From contig CALQSB010000014.1 in assembly GCA_943333125.1 (NCBI GenBank), positions 1 through 64,000 of the forward strand: a stretch of 64,000 nucleotides of DNA. Reading direction: 5' to 3'. A model generated the notes under the pieces. It was not told the DNA's origin and searched no databases. It worked only from the letters and a program-made list of their open reading frames with translations. Origin of the DNA: Chitinophaga pinensis. GTDB taxonomy: Bacteria; Bacteroidota; Bacteroidia; Chitinophagales; Chitinophagaceae. Of the stretch, positions 26,994 to 41,464 are shown piece by piece. A program made the position numbers and the translations under genes. Position 1 is the stretch's first letter, and each line of letters opens with the position of its first letter.

Positions 26994-27764
26994 TTGGCCT
27001 TAACGATACATTCTAAAAATTTGGTGAAAACTTACGGTAGCAGAACCGTGGTTAACGATGTGTCGTTTGATGTAAGTCAGGGAGAAATTGTTGGACTGCT
27101 AGGTCCTAATGGTGCCGGAAAAACAACTTCTTTTTATCAGGTAGTTGGATTGGTAAAATCAGATAAAGGTGAGGTTTTCTTAAATGATATCAACATTACC
27201 AAGCTTCCAATGTATAAAAGAGCAAAATTAGGAATTGGATATTTGCCTCAGGAAGCCAGTGTTTTCAGAAAACTAAGTGTAGAAGATAATATTATGGCGG
27301 TTTTAGAAATGACCAGACTTTCTAAAAAAGAACAAAAAGAAAAGCTTGAATCACTTCTGAATGAATTTAGATTGGGCCATGTTCGTAAAAACAATGGCGA
27401 CACCCTAAGTGGGGGCGAAAGGAGAAGGACCGAAATTGCCCGGGCCCTGGCCGTTGATCCAAAATTTATTTTATTAGATGAACCTTTTGCGGGAGTTGAT
27501 CCTATTGCTGTTGAAGATATTCAGGAGATTATAGCCCGCTTAAAATATAAAAACATTGGTATTCTTATTACCGATCACAATGTAAATGAAACATTATCCA
27601 TCTGTGATCGGGCATATTTATTAATAGACGGGAAAATATTCAAACATGGCACAGCAGAAGAACTGGCAAGCGATGAGCAGGTAAGAGGACTTTATCTCGG
27701 TCGTAATTTTGAACTTAAACGCAAAGATTATCTTCACGAACAGGCTTCCAAAGAAAATTACTAA
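26994..27764 (+). CDS. lptB: Lipopolysaccharide export ABC transporter ATPase LptB
   Basis: 256 residues. It is the cytosolic ATPase that powers LPS extraction by LptFG. Walker A GPNGAGKT (37-44), the LptB-typical TSFYQVVGL right after it, signature [15 protein letters not shown] (about 138), Walker [13 protein letters not shown] and the switch His in [10 protein letters not shown] are all present. The start is a TTG at 26994; no ATG fits the conserved N-terminus. The permease genes are not adjacent, as is common in this phylum. The GH3-like gene follows 76 bp downstream. Confidence 0.93.
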
Positions 27765-27840
27765 AAACAATTTTTTATTTTACAATTTAGTAATAAAACA
27801 CATTAGTTTTTATACAGATAAAATTCTTTATCTTAGGTCA

Positions 27841-29346
27841 ATGAAGTTGCTTTCCCCCGCAATATCTAAATTAGCAAGGATGCGCCTTTGGCGTATAAAG
27901 AACTGGACGAATCATCCTGTTGTTTCACAAAGAGAAGTATTACAAGATTTGGTTACTTCGGCACAGTATACTGTTTTTGGAAAGCAACACTCTTTTTCAA
28001 AATTATTTTCAGTAAAGGAATTTAAGCTTCATGTTCCCATCAGTGAATATGAAGACCTGCAACCTTATATACAAAGAATGCTCGATGGAGAAGAAAATGT
28101 ATTGTGGAACGCGCCGGTGAAATGGTTTGCCAAAAGCAGCGGAACTACAGGAAATAAAAGCAAGTTTATTCCGGTAAGTGATGAGAGCTTGAATGAAAAT
28201 CATTTTAAAGCAAGCAAAGATGTACTTACCAACTATTATAATAATTTTCCTTCGAGTGATTTATTAACCGGTAAAGGTCTTGTTGTTGGAGGCTCTCATC
28301 AAATCAGTACTTTTAATGGCGAAATACAATATGGCGACCTAAGCGCTGTGCTTATGCAAAACACTCCATTCTGGGGCCAGTGGCTTCGCACTCCCGAATT
28401 GAGCGTTGCGCTTATGGATGATTGGGGCGAAAAGATTGAAAAGCTAGCCCAGTCTACAGCCAATGAAAACGTTACCTCTCTTGCAGGTGTTCCAACCTGG
28501 ACATTATTATTGTTAAAACGAATTCTTGAAATAAAAGGAAAACAAACAATTAGCGAAATTTGGCCTAATTTAGAATTATATATTAATGGCGGCGTTTCGT
28601 TTATTCCTTATCGTGATCAATTTGAAAAAATCATTGGAAAGCCTATTAACTACCTCGAAATTTACAATGCCAGTGAAGGTTTTTTTGCCGGACAGGATGG
28701 TCCCGAGAACGACGGAATGACCTTGTTTACAGAACATGGAATTTTCTACGAGTTTATGCCTGTTGAAGAATATGGAAAAAAATTACCGAAGACATTCGGT
28801 TTGGATAAAGTAGAAATAAATAAAAACTATGCATTAATTATTAGCACTACCGGTGGTTTGTGGAGATATCTTGTTGGAGACACCATAAAATTCACTTCCT
28901 TAAACCCTTATCGAATAAAAGTAACCGGAAGATTAAAACACTATATGAATGCTTTTGGTGAAGAAGTAATCGTGGATAATTCAGACAAGGCTATTGCTGT
29001 AGCTGCTCAAAAAACCGGATCTGTAGTTATGGATTATACAGCAGCTCCTGTATATTTTTCTGATAAAAATAATGGGGCACATGAATGGTTGATTGAATTT
29101 GACAAAGAGCCTTTAGATATTAATCAGTTTACATTTGAACTTGATCTTGCATTAAAAAATGTAAACAGCGATTACGAGGCAAAAAGATATAAAGACATCG
29201 CTTTGCGTTTGCCTTATGTTCACCAATTACCCAAAGGAACATTTACGAAATGGCTTCAAAATAATAATCGGGTGGGCGGTCAGCATAAAGTACCAAGACT
29301 AAACAATGAAAGAAAAATAATTGAAGAAATACTGTCTTTAATATAA
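27841..29346 (+). CDS. GH3 auxin-responsive promoter family adenylating enzyme
   Basis: 501 residues from the ATG at 27841. The track start at 27709 overlaps lptB by 56 bp and adds no conserved residues, so I reject it. GH3 features are clear: WFAKSSGTTGNKSKFIPVSDE (P-loop-like motif, about 95-115), the middle LEIYNASEGFFAGQD motif and GLWRYLVGDTIKFTSLNPYRIKVTGR near the hinge. Plant GH3 enzymes join hormone acids to amino acids through an adenylate. Bacteroidota commonly carry a homologue whose substrate is unknown. It lies beside lptB and a FabG-type reductase, hinting at lipid or acyl metabolism. Confidence 0.88.
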   Translation: MKLLSPAISKLARMRLWRIKNWTNHPVVSQREVLQDLVTSAQYTVFGKQHSFSKLFSVKEFKLHVPISEYEDLQPYIQRMLDGEENVLWNAPVKWFAKSSGTTGNKSKFIPVSDESLNENHFKASKDVLTNYYNNFPSSDLLTGKGLVVGGSHQISTFNGEIQYGDLSAVLMQNTPFWGQWLRTPELSVALMDDWGEKIEKLAQSTANENVTSLAGVPTWTLLLLKRILEIKGKQTISEIWPNLELYINGGVSFIPYRDQFEKIIGKPINYLEIYNASEGFFAGQDGPENDGMTLFTEHGIFYEFMPVEEYGKKLPKTFGLDKVEINKNYALIISTTGGLWRYLVGDTIKFTSLNPYRIKVTGRLKHYMNAFGEEVIVDNSDKAIAVAAQKTGSVVMDYTAAPVYFSDKNNGAHEWLIEFDKEPLDINQFTFELDLALKNVNSDYEAKRYKDIALRLPYVHQLPKGTFTKWLQNNNRVGGQHKVPRLNNERKIIEEILSLI

Positions 29347-34253: not shown

Positions 34254-35423
34254 ATGACAAGAGCCGTTGCTTCTTTATTTAAATTTTCTTTACCGAAAAA
34301 TCTAAAAATAAAAGTTTGGGTACTGGCACCTGCAATAGAATCAAAGGATGAGCATATAGATTATTATTACGATTTTACACAAAGCATTGCCGAGTATACT
34401 GCTGTTTTTAAAACTTTGAATATTTTGTGGGAATGGAAAGAAATAAATATGAATAATTTTAAAGCGGTTATTAATGAGATTGAGTCAGACCGCGATACTT
34501 TCTTTCCTGTTGCACTCAATCTTTGTGATGGCGATGAAATAAATGGCGCTCCCGGGCTTTCTGTAATTAAATATCTAGAAGAAAAAGAGATTATTTATAC
34601 AGGTTCGGATGAGTTCTTTTATAATATTACCACGTCAAAAATTCCTATGAAAAAAGCTTTCGACATGGCGGGTGTAGCTAATGCGGAGTGGACTTTTTTT
34701 AGAAGTAAGGGAGATTTTAATGCAGAAGATATTTTAAATAAAACAGGAACTCCTGTTATCATTAAGCCTGCTGTATCCGGTGGAAGTATGGGGGTGGGAA
34801 TTAAAAACGTTGTAGATAATAAAGAAGAGCTAACGATATTGGTTGATAGTTTGTTGGACGGTTATAGAGGCTGGAATTTGAATGCAGATGGAATTATTGC
34901 AGAACGATTTATTGCCGGCCCGGAATTTACAGTATTTATCAGCGGCTCTTATGACCGACCAAATGATGCAGTTATTTATACGCCAGTCGAACGCGTTTTT
35001 CATCAATCTCTTCCTGACAAAGAAAAGTTTTTATCTTTTGACCGTCTTTGGGAAATTTATGAAACAGAATCTCCAATGCCCGAAGATGAGAATTTTTATG
35101 AGTATCAGTTACCGGATCCATCTTTGATTGATTCTATAAAACAATTAAGCTGGGAAGCTTATGTTGCAACTAAAGGTATGGGCTACACGAGGGTTGATAT
35201 CAGAATGGATTTAGTAACTAATAAATTGTATGTATTGGAAGTAAATGCACAATGCGGAATTAGCGAGGATGAAAATTTTACTTCTATTGGAGCAATATTA
35301 AAATTTTCAGGAAGAACTTTTTCACAACTTATTGAAGAAATTCTAAATGATGCCATTAAAAGGGGTTACTCAAAAATTATTTCTCATGTCAATAATAATA
35401 AAAAGAAGGCTATAAGATCTTAA
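34254..35423 (+). CDS. ATP-grasp ligase, D-Ala-D-Ala ligase-like
   Basis: 389 residues. The N-terminal domain (VWVLAPAIESKDEHIDYYYD, NLCDGDEINGAPGLSVIKYLEEKEI, YTGS) resembles Ddl enzymes. The ATP-grasp core follows: TPVIIKPAVSGGSMGVGIKN (glycine loop), IIAERFIAGPEFTVFISG and the metal-binding RVDIRMDLVTNKLYVLEVNAQCG. Such enzymes form amide bonds through an acyl phosphate. The 389-residue length and lack of other cell-wall genes argue against housekeeping ddl. It sits between the SET gene and the ATP-grasp-SET fusion, with gaps of 11 and 17 bp. Confidence 0.85.
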   Translation: MTRAVASLFKFSLPKNLKIKVWVLAPAIESKDEHIDYYYDFTQSIAEYTAVFKTLNILWEWKEINMNNFKAVINEIESDRDTFFPVALNLCDGDEINGAPGLSVIKYLEEKEIIYTGSDEFFYNITTSKIPMKKAFDMAGVANAEWTFFRSKGDFNAEDILNKTGTPVIIKPAVSGGSMGVGIKNVVDNKEELTILVDSLLDGYRGWNLNADGIIAERFIAGPEFTVFISGSYDRPNDAVIYTPVERVFHQSLPDKEKFLSFDRLWEIYETESPMPEDENFYEYQLPDPSLIDSIKQLSWEAYVATKGMGYTRVDIRMDLVTNKLYVLEVNAQCGISEDENFTSIGAILKFSGRTFSQLIEEILNDAIKRGYSKIISHVNNNKKKAIRS

Positions 35424-35440: not shown

Positions 35441-36910
35441 ATGTCAAATGAATTGAAAAATAAAAACCAATTTGCAGTAAAAAAAGTTTGTGTTTTACTG
35501 CCCGATTATTCTACCTCCGATGTAGATTATCAACATTATGATCCTCCAAGAGACCTTTCTCTGCTCCTTCCAGAATGTGAGATCGAGCATGTATTGTTAA
35601 ATAAACTTACCACCTATAAACAGCTTAAAGAGCTCAGTAAGAAAAATTTTGACGTTTTTGTAAACCTATGCGAAGGTTATCTGGAGTGGGCCGTTCCTTC
35701 AATTGATGTTATTTATTTTCTTGAATTACTAAATCTTCCTTTTACAGGACCAAGTTCCCTTTTGTATGATCCTACAAAAGAGTTAATGAAATATGTTGCT
35801 TACACACAAGGCGTAAAAACGCCAAATTATGCTTTGATTGAAGAATTGTCTGATATCGAAACACAATGCAAGCATCTCTCCTATCCTTTGTTTGTTAAGC
35901 CATCAAAAGCTGGAGACAGTTTAGGTATTGACGAAAAATCGCTGGTATATAATTATGGCGAGCTGTTTAAAAAAATCAGTTCAATCATTGATGAATACGG
36001 GCCTTTGCTGGTGGAAGAATATATTGATGGAAGAGAATTTACTGTTATGCTGGTAAGAAATCCAGAAAGCCTTTTATCCACCAAGGTGTTCGCCCCCGTT
36101 GAGTATGTTTTTCCGGAAGGTAAAAAGTTTAAAACCTATGCTTTAAAAACATCCGAACTTCATACCGAAGCCAACAGAGCTGTCAAAGATTTTGAGCTGT
36201 CTGATAAATTAAAAACATCTGCTGAAGATATTTTTAATGGTTTTGGTGGTGTTGGATATGCAAGACTGGATTTCAGAATGAACGAACATGGTGATTTGTT
36301 TTTTCTGGAAATCAATTTTACGTGCTCCGTTTTTTACAGTGGTGGGTATGAGGGTTCTGCAGATTATATTTTAAAAATGGACGGCTGCAGTCCTGATACT
36401 TTTTTACGAATGATTATTGAAGAAGGCAGGGCAAGATATCTTCGAAACCAGAAAAAATATAAAATGAGGGGCAACTCCATCTCTGGATACGGAATCTATG
36501 CCACCAAAGATATTGAAGCCAATGAGTTGATTTTCAAGGGAGAAGAAAGATCACAACGCATTGTATCTCAATCATATGTGAATAACAACTGGACTGTTAA
36601 AGAATTAGAAAACTTTAAAAAATACGCATATCCTCTCAGTAATGAAGTATTTTTGCTCTGGGATGAAAATCCGGCGGGTTGGGCTCCTCAAAATCATAGT
36701 TGCGAGGCCAACACGGTTTATAAAGGACTTAATGTTGTTGCATTACATCCAATAAAAAAAGGCGAAGAACTAACCCTCAATTACGCTGATTTTTTAAATG
36801 ATAAAATGGAGCCCTTTAATTGTACATGTGGAAGCTTGAAATGCCAGGGTTATATTAGTGGCGTTCCTTTAAATTCTGTCAGCACAAGAGAAGAACATAT
36901 CAAGATCTAA
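35441..36910 (+). CDS. ATP-grasp ligase fused to a C-terminal SET domain
   Basis: 489 residues, one open frame. Residues about 10-345 form a Ddl-like ATP-grasp enzyme: VCVLLPDYSTSD, NLCEGYLEWAVPSIDVI, PLFVKPSKAGDSLGID, LLVEEYIDGREFTVMLV and YARLDFRMNEHGDLFFLEIN. From about 348 a SET domain follows, with its GYGIYATKDIEANELIF start, the NHSCEANT motif, GEELTLNYADF and post-SET CTCGSLKCQG. All SET landmarks look intact, unlike in the stand-alone SET gene upstream. Ligation and methylation are thus linked in one polypeptide. A likely task is joining amino acids and methylating the product; the substrate is unknown. Confidence 0.85.
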   Translation: MSNELKNKNQFAVKKVCVLLPDYSTSDVDYQHYDPPRDLSLLLPECEIEHVLLNKLTTYKQLKELSKKNFDVFVNLCEGYLEWAVPSIDVIYFLELLNLPFTGPSSLLYDPTKELMKYVAYTQGVKTPNYALIEELSDIETQCKHLSYPLFVKPSKAGDSLGIDEKSLVYNYGELFKKISSIIDEYGPLLVEEYIDGREFTVMLVRNPESLLSTKVFAPVEYVFPEGKKFKTYALKTSELHTEANRAVKDFELSDKLKTSAEDIFNGFGGVGYARLDFRMNEHGDLFFLEINFTCSVFYSGGYEGSADYILKMDGCSPDTFLRMIIEEGRARYLRNQKKYKMRGNSISGYGIYATKDIEANELIFKGEERSQRIVSQSYVNNNWTVKELENFKKYAYPLSNEVFLLWDENPAGWAPQNHSCEANTVYKGLNVVALHPIKKGEELTLNYADFLNDKMEPFNCTCGSLKCQGYISGVPLNSVSTREEHIKI

Positions 36911-37009: not shown

Positions 37010-37942
37010 ATGTATAAGCTCGATTTAATTGGAAAACTAATTAAGAGATATAGGGCAAAACTTGCTATAACATATTCTCTTTTTTGTTTGGAAATGTTGG
37101 GTACCCTTTTAAGGCCCTTTATGTTGGGTGTTGCTGTAAACGATCTGATAAAAGGAAAATATCAGGGATTAATTATTCTTTCTGTTGTTCATTTGTGTTG
37201 GTTGGTTATTAGTACGATAAGGCACATGTATGATACCAGAACTTTTTCTGCGATTTATACTTCATTGGTAACAAGATTTCTGAATCGCAGATACGGGAAA
37301 TCTGATATCTCTAAACTAAGTGCACATTCCACCCTTTCCAGAGAATTGGTGGATTTTTTAGAATCTGACCTTCCGTATATAATAGAGGCTTTTTATAATA
37401 TTGTAGGGTCTTTGATTCTCCTTTATTTTTATGAAAGCAGCGTGGTATTAATTTGTTATGCAATTCTTTTTCCGGTGATTATCATCAGCTATTTCTATGG
37501 TAAAAAAATGAGAAAATTAAGTCAGTTGAAAAACGACGAATTGGAAAACCAGGTTAGTATAATTGCAATTGGGAATAACGAATCAATACTCAGGCATTAT
37601 AACAAGCTACGTAACCTTCAGATTAAAATATCAGATAAAGAGGCTTGGAATTTTGGAATAATAGAAATGCTGGTATTAATTGTAATAGGCGGTTCTTTGA
37701 TTATTTCTTCAAACATGTTTGGCACTACAATTCTGGCTGGAAATTTAATTGGTATTTATAATTACATTTTAAAATTTGTATCTGGCCTTGATACTATTCC
37801 CTATACCGTTCAGCGATTTTCATTACTTAAGGATATAATAAAAAGAATTGAACTTCAGTCTGACGATATTTCTGAGTCCTATGATTATTCAGATGACACA
37901 AAAGAAAAATATCGTCAAGGCGTTTTAAAACTCAGGGCATAG
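37010..37942 (+). CDS. ABC-transporter-type six-helix membrane domain without ATPase
   Basis: 310 residues from the ATG at 37010; the track start at 36983 is a TTG that adds nine residues. The protein resembles the transmembrane domain of type I ABC exporters: an amphipathic lead (LIGKLIKRYRAKLAITYSLFCLEML), several long hydrophobic helices and the coupling-helix pattern YGKKMRKLSQLKNDELENQVS. It ends with KYRQGVLKLRA; no Walker A, signature or Walker B follows. No ATPase gene is next to it. It lies 99 bp after the ATP-grasp-SET gene and may export the product, using an ATPase encoded elsewhere, or act as a scaffold. Confidence 0.7.
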   Translation: MYKLDLIGKLIKRYRAKLAITYSLFCLEMLGTLLRPFMLGVAVNDLIKGKYQGLIILSVVHLCWLVISTIRHMYDTRTFSAIYTSLVTRFLNRRYGKSDISKLSAHSTLSRELVDFLESDLPYIIEAFYNIVGSLILLYFYESSVVLICYAILFPVIIISYFYGKKMRKLSQLKNDELENQVSIIAIGNNESILRHYNKLRNLQIKISDKEAWNFGIIEMLVLIVIGGSLIISSNMFGTTILAGNLIGIYNYILKFVSGLDTIPYTVQRFSLLKDIIKRIELQSDDISESYDYSDDTKEKYRQGVLKLRA

Positions 37943-37944
37943 TT

Positions 37945-38316
37945 TCACATGTATTCGTTTTTTATAATCACACACCATTCGTTGTCCAGGGGCATGTATC
38001 CGTATTCGTAACAATAGAAGTAATGGGCGCCTAATTTATTTTTATGTATTTGGGTGGTAAGATTAAAAGAAAATCCAAGCTGCATCATATATTCTTTTTT
38101 CAATTTTATCATTGAATCTTTTTCTCCTAAAATATTTTCAAGAATTCTTCTGTTTTTCGAAAGTCTGTTATTGATATTTCTAACATAATTATTAGCCGCG
38201 GATTTAAGTTGATTATTATATCCGTTTCTGCAATAATCATTACAGAACTTTTTATCTATTCTTCCTTTAATAACTTTACTACAGGCGATACAATTTTTTA
38301 ATGGGGTGTGTTGCAT
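37945..38316 (-). CDS. Small zinc-finger-like protein, hypothetical
   Basis: 123 residues. The N-terminus has a four-Cys zinc-ribbon pattern, CIACSKVIKGRIDKKFCNDYC, followed by a basic helix (RNINNRLSKNRRILENIL) and a C-terminal beta-like region with LGAHYFYCYEYGYMPLDNEWCVI. No named family recognised; proteins of this form are common in Bacteroidota. It is convergent with the ABC-type gene, with only 2 bp between the stops. Confidence 0.65.
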   Translation of the reverse strand: MQHTPLKNCIACSKVIKGRIDKKFCNDYCRNGYNNQLKSAANNYVRNINNRLSKNRRILENILGEKDSMIKLKKEYMMQLGFSFNLTTQIHKNKLGAHYFYCYEYGYMPLDNEWCVIIKNEYM

Positions 38317-38513
38317 GTTGTTTTTTTAATTTCAAAAATACAATTAGAATCATCAGACTTATCCGTTTTTACACGCTTTCAAATATGTATTTTCAACAAC
38401 AAACGAATAAATACCGAATATTAAAATAAAGCAGGTGCACCTTTGCATTGTTATTATTGAGGCGCCCATAATAACTGAGATATAATTTTATAAACAATTA
38501 AAAAAACACAATT

Positions 38514-38858
38514 ATGTATTCTTTAAGAAACAAAGTTCAACTAATCGGAAATCTTGGGAAATCACCAGACATTAAAAAAACAGAGTCTGGTAAAAAACTC
38601 GTGAAGTTTTCTGTTGCAACCAATGAAATATTCACAAACCTAAAAGGCGAGAAAGTTAAGGAAACACAATGGCACAATCTTGTTGCTTGGGGAAAACTTG
38701 CAGACGTTGCAGAAAAATATCTGAATAAAGGTAGCGAGGTGGCTGTAGAAGGGAAACTCGTCTCCCGCGATTATACAGATAAAGAAGGCAATAAAAAATA
38801 CGTAACAGAGGTTCACGTTAATGAGCTGTTATTACTGGGTGGAAAAGCAAGTGCCTAA
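38514..38858 (+). CDS. ssb: Single-stranded DNA-binding protein
   Basis: 114 residues. The OB fold is complete: NKVQLIGNLGKSPDIKKTESGKKLVKFSVATNE, then ETQWHNLVAWGKLADVAEKYLNKGSEVAVEGKL and the TEVHVNELLLLG strand. It coats single-stranded DNA during replication and repair. It is shorter than the usual Ssb because the long disordered tail and the acidic C-terminal tip are missing (it ends in GGKASA), as in accessory or small Bacteroidota Ssb copies. It may therefore not be the main one. A weak promoter-like CACCTTTG lies about 70 bp upstream. Confidence 0.88.
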   Translation: MYSLRNKVQLIGNLGKSPDIKKTESGKKLVKFSVATNEIFTNLKGEKVKETQWHNLVAWGKLADVAEKYLNKGSEVAVEGKLVSRDYTDKEGNKKYVTEVHVNELLLLGGKASA

Positions 38859-38963
38859 AATAGATCATTATGTGTTGAAAGTAAATTTACTTTTATTTCT
38901 TTTAGATCTTTTATAAATTTTAAAGATTTTTGTAGGGTCGATAATTTTTAACTGTTCTTCTCT

Positions 38964-38998
38964 AAAAAATGCGCGATTGGTTATAAGGCCAATCGCGC
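38964..38998 (-). terminator. Rho-independent terminator after the cupin gene
   Basis: GCGCGATTGG (38971-38980) pairs perfectly with CCAATCGCGC (38989-38998) over an 8-nt loop. Read on the minus strand, the hairpin is followed by a T-run (38964-38970 on the plus strand is A-rich). It ends the ybeY-mnmG-cupin transcript. Confidence 0.82.
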
Positions 38999-39045
38999 CA
39001 CATAATGAAATTCTTATTGGAATAAAAAATGATTTATTTAAACTA

Positions 39046-39540
39046 TCATGCCCTTCCGAATTCATCATTTATTCTAATGATATCATCTTCATCACTTGGA
39101 TTTTCGGGATCCGTATGCATCCAAATTTCAGCAACTATCCCCCACTCTGATAATCCAACAAGTCGGTGTCTTTCTCCTTGTTTAAGAGTAATAATATCAT
39201 CAATAATTAATAGCTCCAAATTATTTTCAACATCGGTTTCGCTCCGAATAATTGCCGCTTCGCCTTTTATTAATTTCCATATTTCTGCTCTGCGATGATG
39301 ATACTGCCAGCTTAATTTTTTATTAGGAGCAACCAATAATATCTTAGGACTTAATTTTCCTTTTTGTATTTCCTCTTTGTTTACTGTAGGAAAAAAATAA
39401 TCAATAAATTGGGCGGTGTTTGATTCTTCAATAACAAAAAAACCACCCCAGGGTCTATTATTATCAATGGTTTTTATTTTAATTGCCAATGAGTTTAAAA
39501 AACCGTTCACCTCTGAAAAAATATTTTCTTTTGTTTTCAT
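39046..39540 (-). CDS. Cupin, phosphomannose isomerase type II-like
   Basis: 164 residues. The single cupin resembles the C-terminal domain of mannose-6-phosphate isomerase/GDP-mannose pyrophosphorylase: NRPWGGFFVIEES, PKILLVAPNKKLSWQYHHRRAEIW (metal-binding His pair), KLIKGEAAI and LKQGERHRLVGLSEWGIVAEIWMHTDPENPSDEDDIIR. It probably isomerises or binds a sugar phosphate in the cytosol. It begins 12 bp after mnmG and is followed by a terminator, so it is the last gene of that operon. Confidence 0.8.
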   Translation of the reverse strand: MKTKENIFSEVNGFLNSLAIKIKTIDNNRPWGGFFVIEESNTAQFIDYFFPTVNKEEIQKGKLSPKILLVAPNKKLSWQYHHRRAEIWKLIKGEAAIIRSETDVENNLELLIIDDIITLKQGERHRLVGLSEWGIVAEIWMHTDPENPSDEDDIIRINDEFGRA

Positions 39541-39551
39541 TTTTATAGTTT

Positions 39552-41420
39552 TTATCTACCCATAAAAAGCATTAATATTTGAACATCGCTTGGATTTACA
39601 CCTGAAATTCTTGACGCCTGACCAAGTGTCTTGGGTTGTATTTTTGTGAACTTTTGTCTTGCCTCATTGCTTAAAGAAACTAATTTGTTGTAATTAAAAT
39701 TATCTGGAATATTTAGATTTTCCAACTGACTCATTTTAACGACCAGTTCTTTTTCTTTTTCTATGTATGTATCATACTTAATTTGAATTTCAGCCTGTTC
39801 TATAATATCTGAATCAAAATTACACAGCAGTTCATTTAATTTAGGCAATGCCAACATCATTGCTTTTAGCCCAACTCCTGGCCTTAATAATATTTGTGCT
39901 GTTTTTTGTTTTATTAATAACGGAGATGAGTATACGCTAATTAAAAATTCGTTTACCTCTTCTGTTTCAAAGCTTGTATTAAACAGGATTTCTTTAACTT
40001 CTTCTACTCCCTTTCTTTTTACTAATAACTTATCCATCCTATCCTGCCCAGCCAGGCCCAATTTGTAGCTTATTTCTGTGAGCCTGATATCTGCATTGTC
40101 TTGTCTTAAAAGGGTTCTAAATTCTGCCCTACTGGTAAACATCCGGTAAGGCTCATCGGTACCTTTATTAATTAGGTCATCTATTAGCACTCCAATATAA
40201 GCTTCGCTTCTTTTTAATACCAGAGGTTCTAAATTATTTACATTTTGATGTGCGTTAATCCCTGCCATTAAACCTTGGCATGCCGCCTCTTCGTAACCAG
40301 TTGTACCATTTATTTGCCCTGCAAAAAATAAATTTTTAATTAGTTTTGTTTCCAGGCTGAATTTAAGTTGTGTAGGTGGAAAATAATCATATTCAATCGC
40401 ATAACCGGGTCTGAACATTTTACAGTTCTCAAAACCAGGAACCTTTCTAAGTGCTTGAATCTGAATATCTTCTGATAAAGAGGTTGAAAATCCATTAACG
40501 TATATCTCCACCGTATTCCATCCTTCCGGTTCAACAAACAACTGGTGCCTGTCTCTTTCTGCAAAACGATTTATTTTATCTTCAATACTTGGGCAATACC
40601 TTGGTCCCGTTCCTTGAATTCTTCCCTGATACATTGGACTGGAATCAAACCCTTCTTTTAGAATATCATGAACCTCCTGACTTGTATAGGTAATCCAGCA
40701 ACTTCTTTGATTTTCCGGCTTAAGTGTTGGTTTTTCTAAATAACTAAAGCCAACAATCTCATCATCACCTTTTTGTTCTTCCATTTTAGAATAATCCAAG
40801 CTTCTTCCATCAATTCTTGGAGGGGTTCCGGTTTTTAATCTGTCACTTTCAAAGCCAAGAGCTACTAATTGTTCTGTTATGCCTGTTGCCGCTTTCTCTG
40901 CAACCCTTCCACCGCCGAAATTTTTCTCTCCTATGTGAATTACCCCATTTAAGAAAGTACCATTGGTTAAAACAACAGATTTTGATTTTATTTCGTGACC
41001 CAAACCTGTAATTACTCCTTCTACTTTGTTATTATTAACGATCAGACCCTTAACCGTATCCTGATAAAAATCCAGATTAGGTGTTTGCTCCAGCATTTCC
41101 CTCCATGTTTGAGCAAATAACATCCTGTCACTTTGGGCTCTTGGGCTCCACATTGCTGGGCCCTTAGATCTATTAAGCATTCTAAATTGAATCATGCTTT
41201 TATCGGTAACAATTCCGCTGTATCCGCCCAAAGCGTCTATTTCTTTTACAATCTGTCCTTTTGCGATTCCTCCCATAGCAGGATTACAACTCATTTGGGC
41301 AATGGTTTGCATGTTCATTGTAATAAGCAAAACCTTGCTACCCATATTAGCGGCCGAAGCAGCGGCCTCGCAGCCGGCGTGCCCGGCACCCACTACTATA
41401 ATATCGTATTTCTGAAACAT
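39552..41420 (-). CDS. mnmG: tRNA uridine-5-carboxymethylaminomethyl modification enzyme MnmG (GidA)
   Basis: 622 residues from the ATG at 41420. The track start at 41456 would reach into the parS spacer and adds 12 residues before the conserved MFQKYDIIVVGAGHAGCEAA. MnmG uses FAD and folate, with MnmE, to modify wobble uridine in tRNA. FAD-binding VVGAGHAGCEAA, GTFLNGVIHIGEKNFGGGR, GQINGTTGYEEAACQGLMAG and the C-terminal RISGVNPSDVQILM are all intact. It is often near the chromosome origin, and parS sites lie directly upstream here. It lies downstream of ybeY in an operon. Confidence 0.96.
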   Translation of the reverse strand: MFQKYDIIVVGAGHAGCEAAASAANMGSKVLLITMNMQTIAQMSCNPAMGGIAKGQIVKEIDALGGYSGIVTDKSMIQFRMLNRSKGPAMWSPRAQSDRMLFAQTWREMLEQTPNLDFYQDTVKGLIVNNNKVEGVITGLGHEIKSKSVVLTNGTFLNGVIHIGEKNFGGGRVAEKAATGITEQLVALGFESDRLKTGTPPRIDGRSLDYSKMEEQKGDDEIVGFSYLEKPTLKPENQRSCWITYTSQEVHDILKEGFDSSPMYQGRIQGTGPRYCPSIEDKINRFAERDRHQLFVEPEGWNTVEIYVNGFSTSLSEDIQIQALRKVPGFENCKMFRPGYAIEYDYFPPTQLKFSLETKLIKNLFFAGQINGTTGYEEAACQGLMAGINAHQNVNNLEPLVLKRSEAYIGVLIDDLINKGTDEPYRMFTSRAEFRTLLRQDNADIRLTEISYKLGLAGQDRMDKLLVKRKGVEEVKEILFNTSFETEEVNEFLISVYSSPLLIKQKTAQILLRPGVGLKAMMLALPKLNELLCNFDSDIIEQAEIQIKYDTYIEKEKELVVKMSQLENLNIPDNFNYNKLVSLSNEARQKFTKIQPKTLGQASRISGVNPSDVQILMLFMGR

Positions 41421-41448
41421 TTTTAAAAGTATTAAGAGATTGGTTTCT

Positions 41449-41464
41449 TGTTCCACGTGGAACT
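41449..41464. other. parS: parS centromere site 1
   Basis: TGTTCCACGTGGAACT contains the perfect palindrome GTTCCACGTGGAAC, matching the ParB-binding consensus (TGTTNCACGTGNAACA) in 15 of 16 positions. It lies in the 60-bp gap between ybeY and mnmG. ParB loads here to form the partition complex that segregates newly replicated origins. Confidence 0.85.

Follow-up and report, generated by a model that had tools for sequence, protein, structure and literature searches.

The window analysed here is a stretch of 64,000 nucleotides of the Chitinophaga pinensis assembly GCA_943333125.1 (contig CALQSB010000014.1, positions 1 to 64,000 of the forward strand). Four of its genes follow one another on the same strand: a SET gene, after 11 bases an ATP-grasp ligase gene, after a further 17 bases a gene that encodes both types of domain in one chain (below, the fusion), and after 99 bases the gene of a membrane protein. 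They are listed below, where Ddl denotes D-Ala-D-Ala ligase and BurB is the SET enzyme of Burkholderia thailandensis that S-methylates free methionine (PMC12542666).

33748..34242, forward strand: stand-alone SET protein, 164 aa, BurB-like, without the GxG motif (Pfam SET, 1.1e-8)
34254..35423, forward strand: second ATP-grasp ligase, 389 aa, of the Ddl-type fold family, not Ddl (Pfam Dala_Dala_lig_C, 1e-16)
35441..36910, forward strand: fusion protein, 489 aa, Ddl-type ATP-grasp at about residues 15-330, SET and post-SET at about residues 336-475
37010..37942, forward strand: ABC_membrane_3 protein, 310 aa, candidate exporter part (Pfam, 1.2e-44)

The fusion gene is a single open frame of 489 codons starting with ATG, with an ATP-grasp part of the D-Ala-D-Ala-ligase type at the N-terminus and a SET domain followed by post-SET zinc cysteines at the C-terminus. 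Both domains are recognised by Pfam above the gathering cut-off (Dala_Dala_lig_C, residues 133-292, 3.8e-19; SET, residues 349-448, 5.6e-11, 43.2 bits against a gathering score of 22.4), and the SET landmarks NHSCEANT, GEELTLNYAD and CTCGSLKCQG, described as intact in the preliminary description of this DNA, are all found. In the ligand-free AF2 model (pLDDT 87, pTM 0.81) the N-terminal part resembles D-Ala-D-Ala ligases (Foldseek; DdlB, TM 0.79 by target length). Searching the PDB with the fusion profile yielded Ddl for the ligase half (1.6e-22), and BurB (2.1e-13) followed by MLL4 (2.9e-12) for the SET half, this order being reversed when the single fusion sequence was used as the query. By both fold and catalytic residues the ligase half is a member of the ATP-grasp superfamily. 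The fused SET domain has the sequence features of the SET superfamily, and is predicted to transfer a methyl group from S-adenosylmethionine (SAM). No family combining ATP-grasp and SET was present among the matches listed for Pfam, NCBIfam and PADLOC.

The likeness of the fusion to Ddl comprises the fold and the ATP-grasp catalytic residues. The fusion scores 84.2 bits, whereas the Ddl family cut-off is 245.65 (TIGR01205); its N-terminal substrate region is different, VDYxxYDPxR, with YDPxR in place of the Ddl motif; and it carries a SET domain. As a separate true Ddl is encoded elsewhere in the genome, and the fusion falls far short of the Ddl cut-offs, we rejected a housekeeping Ddl role for the fusion. 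The second ligase is also far under these cut-offs, and its residues K171, E217, R313, D315, E329 and N331 are retained in 99 of 99 sequences.

Of 249 genomes from this order, 31 have full-length homologues of the fusion (55-69% identity). Thus, the fusion is not an assembly join, and the earlier claim that one frame encodes both parts holds. A scan of 84,980 species genomes, with patterns tuned to members of the Chitinophagales type, identified relatives at 360 loci. The best 80 of these 360 were examined, and by title they belong to Chitinophagaceae and other Bacteroidetes (Ferruginibacter, Sediminibacterium, Lacibacter and many metagenome-assembled genomes), the exceptions being one "uncultured bacterium" and one apparently mislabelled record. 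The cultured Chitinophagaceae carrying the fusion include Ferruginibacter paludis and Lacibacter luteus. The record L063, titled as a Streptomyces griseus MAG, has a fusion at 76% identity to that of the window, and probably is a mislabelled bin. The genome searches sample the phylum, and remoter full-length members (37-51% identity) occur elsewhere in it. Two genomes of the family to which most of these remoter members belong encode the Fenna-Matthews-Olson protein, a mark of green sulfur bacteria; for the numbered genomes, taxonomy was inferred by marker gene for this group only.

In the phylogenetic tree of SET domains the fused halves, including those from green sulfur bacteria, form one clade (support 99/99), hence a single ancient fusion event is the simplest history. 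The stand-alone SET proteins cluster more weakly (support 91/90) in this tree, which was constructed without BurB, compared through PDB searches only. We found no relative of the fusion in viral contigs and rejected a phage origin; a plasmid origin was rejected as well, the plasmid matches being distant ATP-grasp proteins with identity below 60%. No SET gene was seen among the listed features of three such plasmid regions, for which the gene tables are incomplete. A ligase lacking a SET domain (L056:9208-10170), 34% identical to the ATP-grasp half of the fusion, is possibly a pre-fusion or SET-less relative.

Residue conservation was assessed in 113 related loci, representing 107 distinct fusion sequences. 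The ATP-grasp residues K153, E192, K231, K236, R275, D277, E290, N292 and S306 are invariant (107/107), and so are W384, W414, P416, N418, H419, C421, T445, Y448, F459, C461, C463 and C468 of the SET half. Thus, the catalytic residues whose loss would have spoken against an enzymatic SET domain (the NHxC and T-x-x-Y motifs and the zinc cysteines) are present without exception. The GxG strand of the fused domain, GYG in the window, is slightly more variable, with G349 in 101 and G351 in 106 of the 107 sequences: it is complete in the Chitinophagales-type members, the first glycine is lost in the green-sulfur members and in one other deep member, and the second glycine in one deep member. Comparison with the closest relative gave dN/dS of about 0.08 for the ligase half and about 0.13 for the SET half; both halves of the fusion are under purifying selection. 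Given these residues, the fused SET domain looks catalytic.

As for the substrate of this domain, the histone-lysine methyltransferases KMT2 (MLL) and ASH1L share with it the SET and post-SET arrangement and have scores near that of BurB. However, in place of the R-F-I-N-H-S-C run, as seen in ASH1L, the fusion has an invariant W-x-P-x-N-H-x-C (W414, P416, N418 and H419 in 107/107), and, unlike these enzymes, it is bacterial and joined to a ligase of the small-molecule type. The altered run is consistent with a substrate other than that of the lysine methyltransferases.

The stand-alone SET protein was earlier thought to have a weak cofactor strand and, for this reason, to be possibly a partner rather than a second enzyme. 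The former observation is correct, as GxG is missing in 25 inspected sequences and the position counts over 83 sequences agree. The conclusion drawn from it is weakened. N81, H82, C84, Y113, E117 and the zinc cysteines are invariant (83/83), which would not be expected of a mere binding partner. The nearest solved relative by profile is BurB (1.2e-21; the runner-up, 7.5e-9), and in the fold search with the AF2 model (pLDDT 94) the top three matches are BurB chains (1.2e-8). Four Chitinophagales genomes lack the stand-alone gene and have the pair of the second ligase and the fusion, which argues against an obligate partner; in three genomes the SET gene is not linked to the fusion, and in one genome (G448) it adjoins the second ligase apart from the fusion. 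Hence the stand-alone protein is more likely to be a second, dispensable enzyme with unusual SAM binding than a dead partner.

In common with BurB (PDB 9l4t/9l4v), the stand-alone protein has the runs HSCxPN and YxSTE, those of the zinc cysteines, and a trailing I-x-GA. In the fusion, for whose profile BurB is the best SET match, YxSTE is missing and the SET domain is attached to a ligase. BurB itself is a free-standing enzyme of a dimethylsulfoniopropionate pathway, with GRG in its SAM-gating loop and the adenine-contacting His138; the cassette SET protein lacks this GxG, and the position of His138 is occupied by Asn in the window. Methionine S-methyltransferase activity of the stand-alone protein is putative; BurB is its closest solved relative, and the GRG and His138 features are absent.

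The usual cassette consists of the SET gene, the second ligase and the fusion, often with the ABC-type membrane protein. Among 113 fusion loci, 85 have the SET gene clustered with the fusion and 61 the membrane gene, and almost every Chitinophagales locus has the second ligase together with the fusion. Green sulfur bacteria have, in this order, the SET gene, the fusion, a full ABC exporter and a small SET gene. The latter encodes 118-120 aa directly after the exporter (L159:5836-6198, L161:11756-12112 and L162:5812-6174), so that the fusion and the exporter lie between two free SET genes, the small one being a third SET gene. In two other deep lineages the fusion occurs without the second ligase, the SET gene or a linked transporter. 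The transport genes linked to the fusion are of two kinds without detectable similarity, ABC_membrane_3 in Chitinophagales and the full exporter in green sulfur bacteria. The ABC_membrane_3 protein of the window cassette comprises the transmembrane region only, with no ATPase gene seen beside it, and a Walker A motif is absent from all 61 cassette genes of this kind.

Several other roles and signals were considered. Among the neighbours of the 113 fusion loci, no conserved cassette neighbour of at least 80 aa fits a precursor gene, and the 25 listed of the 38 NCBIfam matches of the fusion include no RiPP (graspetide) maturase family. Rfam gave no match in the window cassette and only a tRNA in seven related loci, and riboswitch control, for example by SAM, was rejected for want of a supporting match in these regions. 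Promoters and terminators showed no excess over shuffles. Anti-phage defence was rejected too, the only PADLOC match being a marginal one of the membrane protein (0.0072).

We consider it nearly an even chance that the fusion is a biosynthetic enzyme whose two domains serve a small-molecule pathway, and that the product of this pathway, a methylated dipeptide-like compound, is exported. The ATP-grasp half would use ATP to activate a carboxylate and couple it to the amine of an amino acid; D-Ala-D-Ala ligase carries out the same type of reaction on other substrates. The same compound would receive a methyl group from SAM through the SET half, either before it is ligated or afterwards. Where the Chitinophagales cassette is complete, the second ligase and the BurB-like SET enzyme would act in the same pathway; with these two, the product would probably be a dipeptide or tripeptide that is methylated and may contain an S-methylmethionine unit, and the associated ABC-type membrane protein would be its way out of the cell. 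The reaction types of both halves are inferred from fold and residues, while the substrates, the order of steps and export are guesses. In particular, direct handover of a ligated product to the methylating domain, which the preliminary description derived from the fusion, is a guess at one of two orders, and methylation before ligation fits equally well.

That the product is small and exported is suggested by the ligase fold, the methionine-methylating relative and the two kinds of transport genes, and the conserved gene set, the genes of which travel together, favours the proposal, as do the invariant catalytic residues of both domains, the purifying selection on both and the existence of a separate Ddl. 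On the other hand, the ABC_membrane_3 gene is missing at about half of the loci, the single fused SET sequence matches MLL4 above BurB, the fusion stands alone in two deep lineages, and the conserved neighbours of the cassette include no gene dedicated to making a precursor. The proposal is at its weakest on export, where the role of the ABC_membrane_3 protein is doubtful, as this protein has no ATPase domain.

Protein lysines are the target of most SET enzymes, and in comparisons with the fusion the scores of KMT2-type SET domains are close to that of BurB. Hence it could be that the enzyme modifies proteins, the ATP-grasp half attaching an amino acid to a protein in the manner of tubulin tyrosine ligases, and the SET half methylating a lysine of the same or another protein. 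Such a combination has a precedent in eukaryotic TTLL12, where a SET-like and a tubulin-tyrosine-ligase-like domain reside in one polypeptide tied to protein modification (PMC3520985); likewise, the neighbours of one fusion (L158) include a MATCAP-family peptidase and a ligase resembling glutathione synthetase. However, the ligase half is of the Ddl type, a family that joins free amino acids, the run seen in ASH1L is replaced by the invariant W-x-P-x-N-H-x-C, and the companion SET protein is nearest to a methyltransferase of a free amino acid. All in all, we regard protein modification as rather unlikely. Fusion and TTLL12 are alike in having a SET-type and an ATP-grasp-type domain in one chain, but the order in TTLL12 is reverse, with the SET-like domain N-terminal, its ligase is of the TTL rather than the Ddl type, and it is eukaryotic.

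TTLL12 also bears on the question of whether the fused SET domain is an enzyme at all. It is reported to be inactive in vitro as a methyltransferase, with critical residues missing (PMC3520985), and the loss of the first GxG glycine in several deep members of our family could similarly point to a non-catalytic module on the ligase, for binding or dimerisation. This we consider very improbable, since NHxC, Tyr448 and the zinc cysteines are kept in 107/107 sequences at dN/dS of about 0.13 in the SET half; TTLL12, in contrast, is reported to lack an asparagine critical for activity (PMC3520985). The remaining alternative retains both activities in the same pathway and changes their order: the SET enzymes would make methylated amino acids, such as S-methylmethionine, the ligases would build them in, and the fusion would only co-locate two enzymes. 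BurB works on the free amino acid methionine (PMC12542666), and some fusions are found without a second ligase, both in line with methylation coming first; but if the stand-alone SET protein makes the methylated amino acid, the SET domain joined to the ligase would need another target, and we consider this arrangement unlikely.

Returning to the biosynthetic reading, its broadest form is held slightly more tentatively: a bifunctional ATP-grasp/SET enzyme that would ligate amino acids and methylate the same molecule may be central to a so far undescribed family of small peptides across Chitinophagales and green sulfur bacteria. These peptides would be methylated, perhaps as sulfonium compounds, and exported, and the SET domains would act on small molecules instead of proteins. 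In general, SET domains are best known for methylating protein lysines, and BurB is a recently solved exception with a free amino acid as the substrate. If the proposal is true, SET enzymes take a broader part in the biosynthesis of small molecules, common environmental bacteria make a product not known so far, and the fusion is a live counterpart of the inactive TTLL12. Both domains are known as such, while the intact fusion and its cassette appear to be undescribed: no earlier account of a bacterial ATP-grasp/SET cluster was found in the searched literature, where coverage is incomplete and an earlier description is possible, the one reported SET/ATP-grasp protein there being TTLL12 (PMC3520985).

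Several further neighbours may be mentioned. At L158:4041-9792, in a deep member and all on one strand, the fusion is near an N-formylglutamate-amidohydrolase-like protein, the MATCAP-family (DUF1704/QEGLA) peptidase and the glutathione-synthetase-like ATP-grasp ligase. KamA-like radical SAM genes adjoin distant ATP-grasp relatives in two unrelated records (L167:6390-9273, recognised by sequence only, and L143:8830-10966). Upstream in the window, at 27709-29346, there is a gene that by eye has the look of a GH3-type (plant auxin-conjugating) acyl-adenylating enzyme. Downstream, at 37945-41456, lie genes for a DUF2116-like zinc protein, a single-stranded-DNA-binding protein and an MnmG-like protein, the last two named from sequence. 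Many Chitinophagales loci have these downstream genes next to the cassette as well, which suggests that its chromosomal site is stable.
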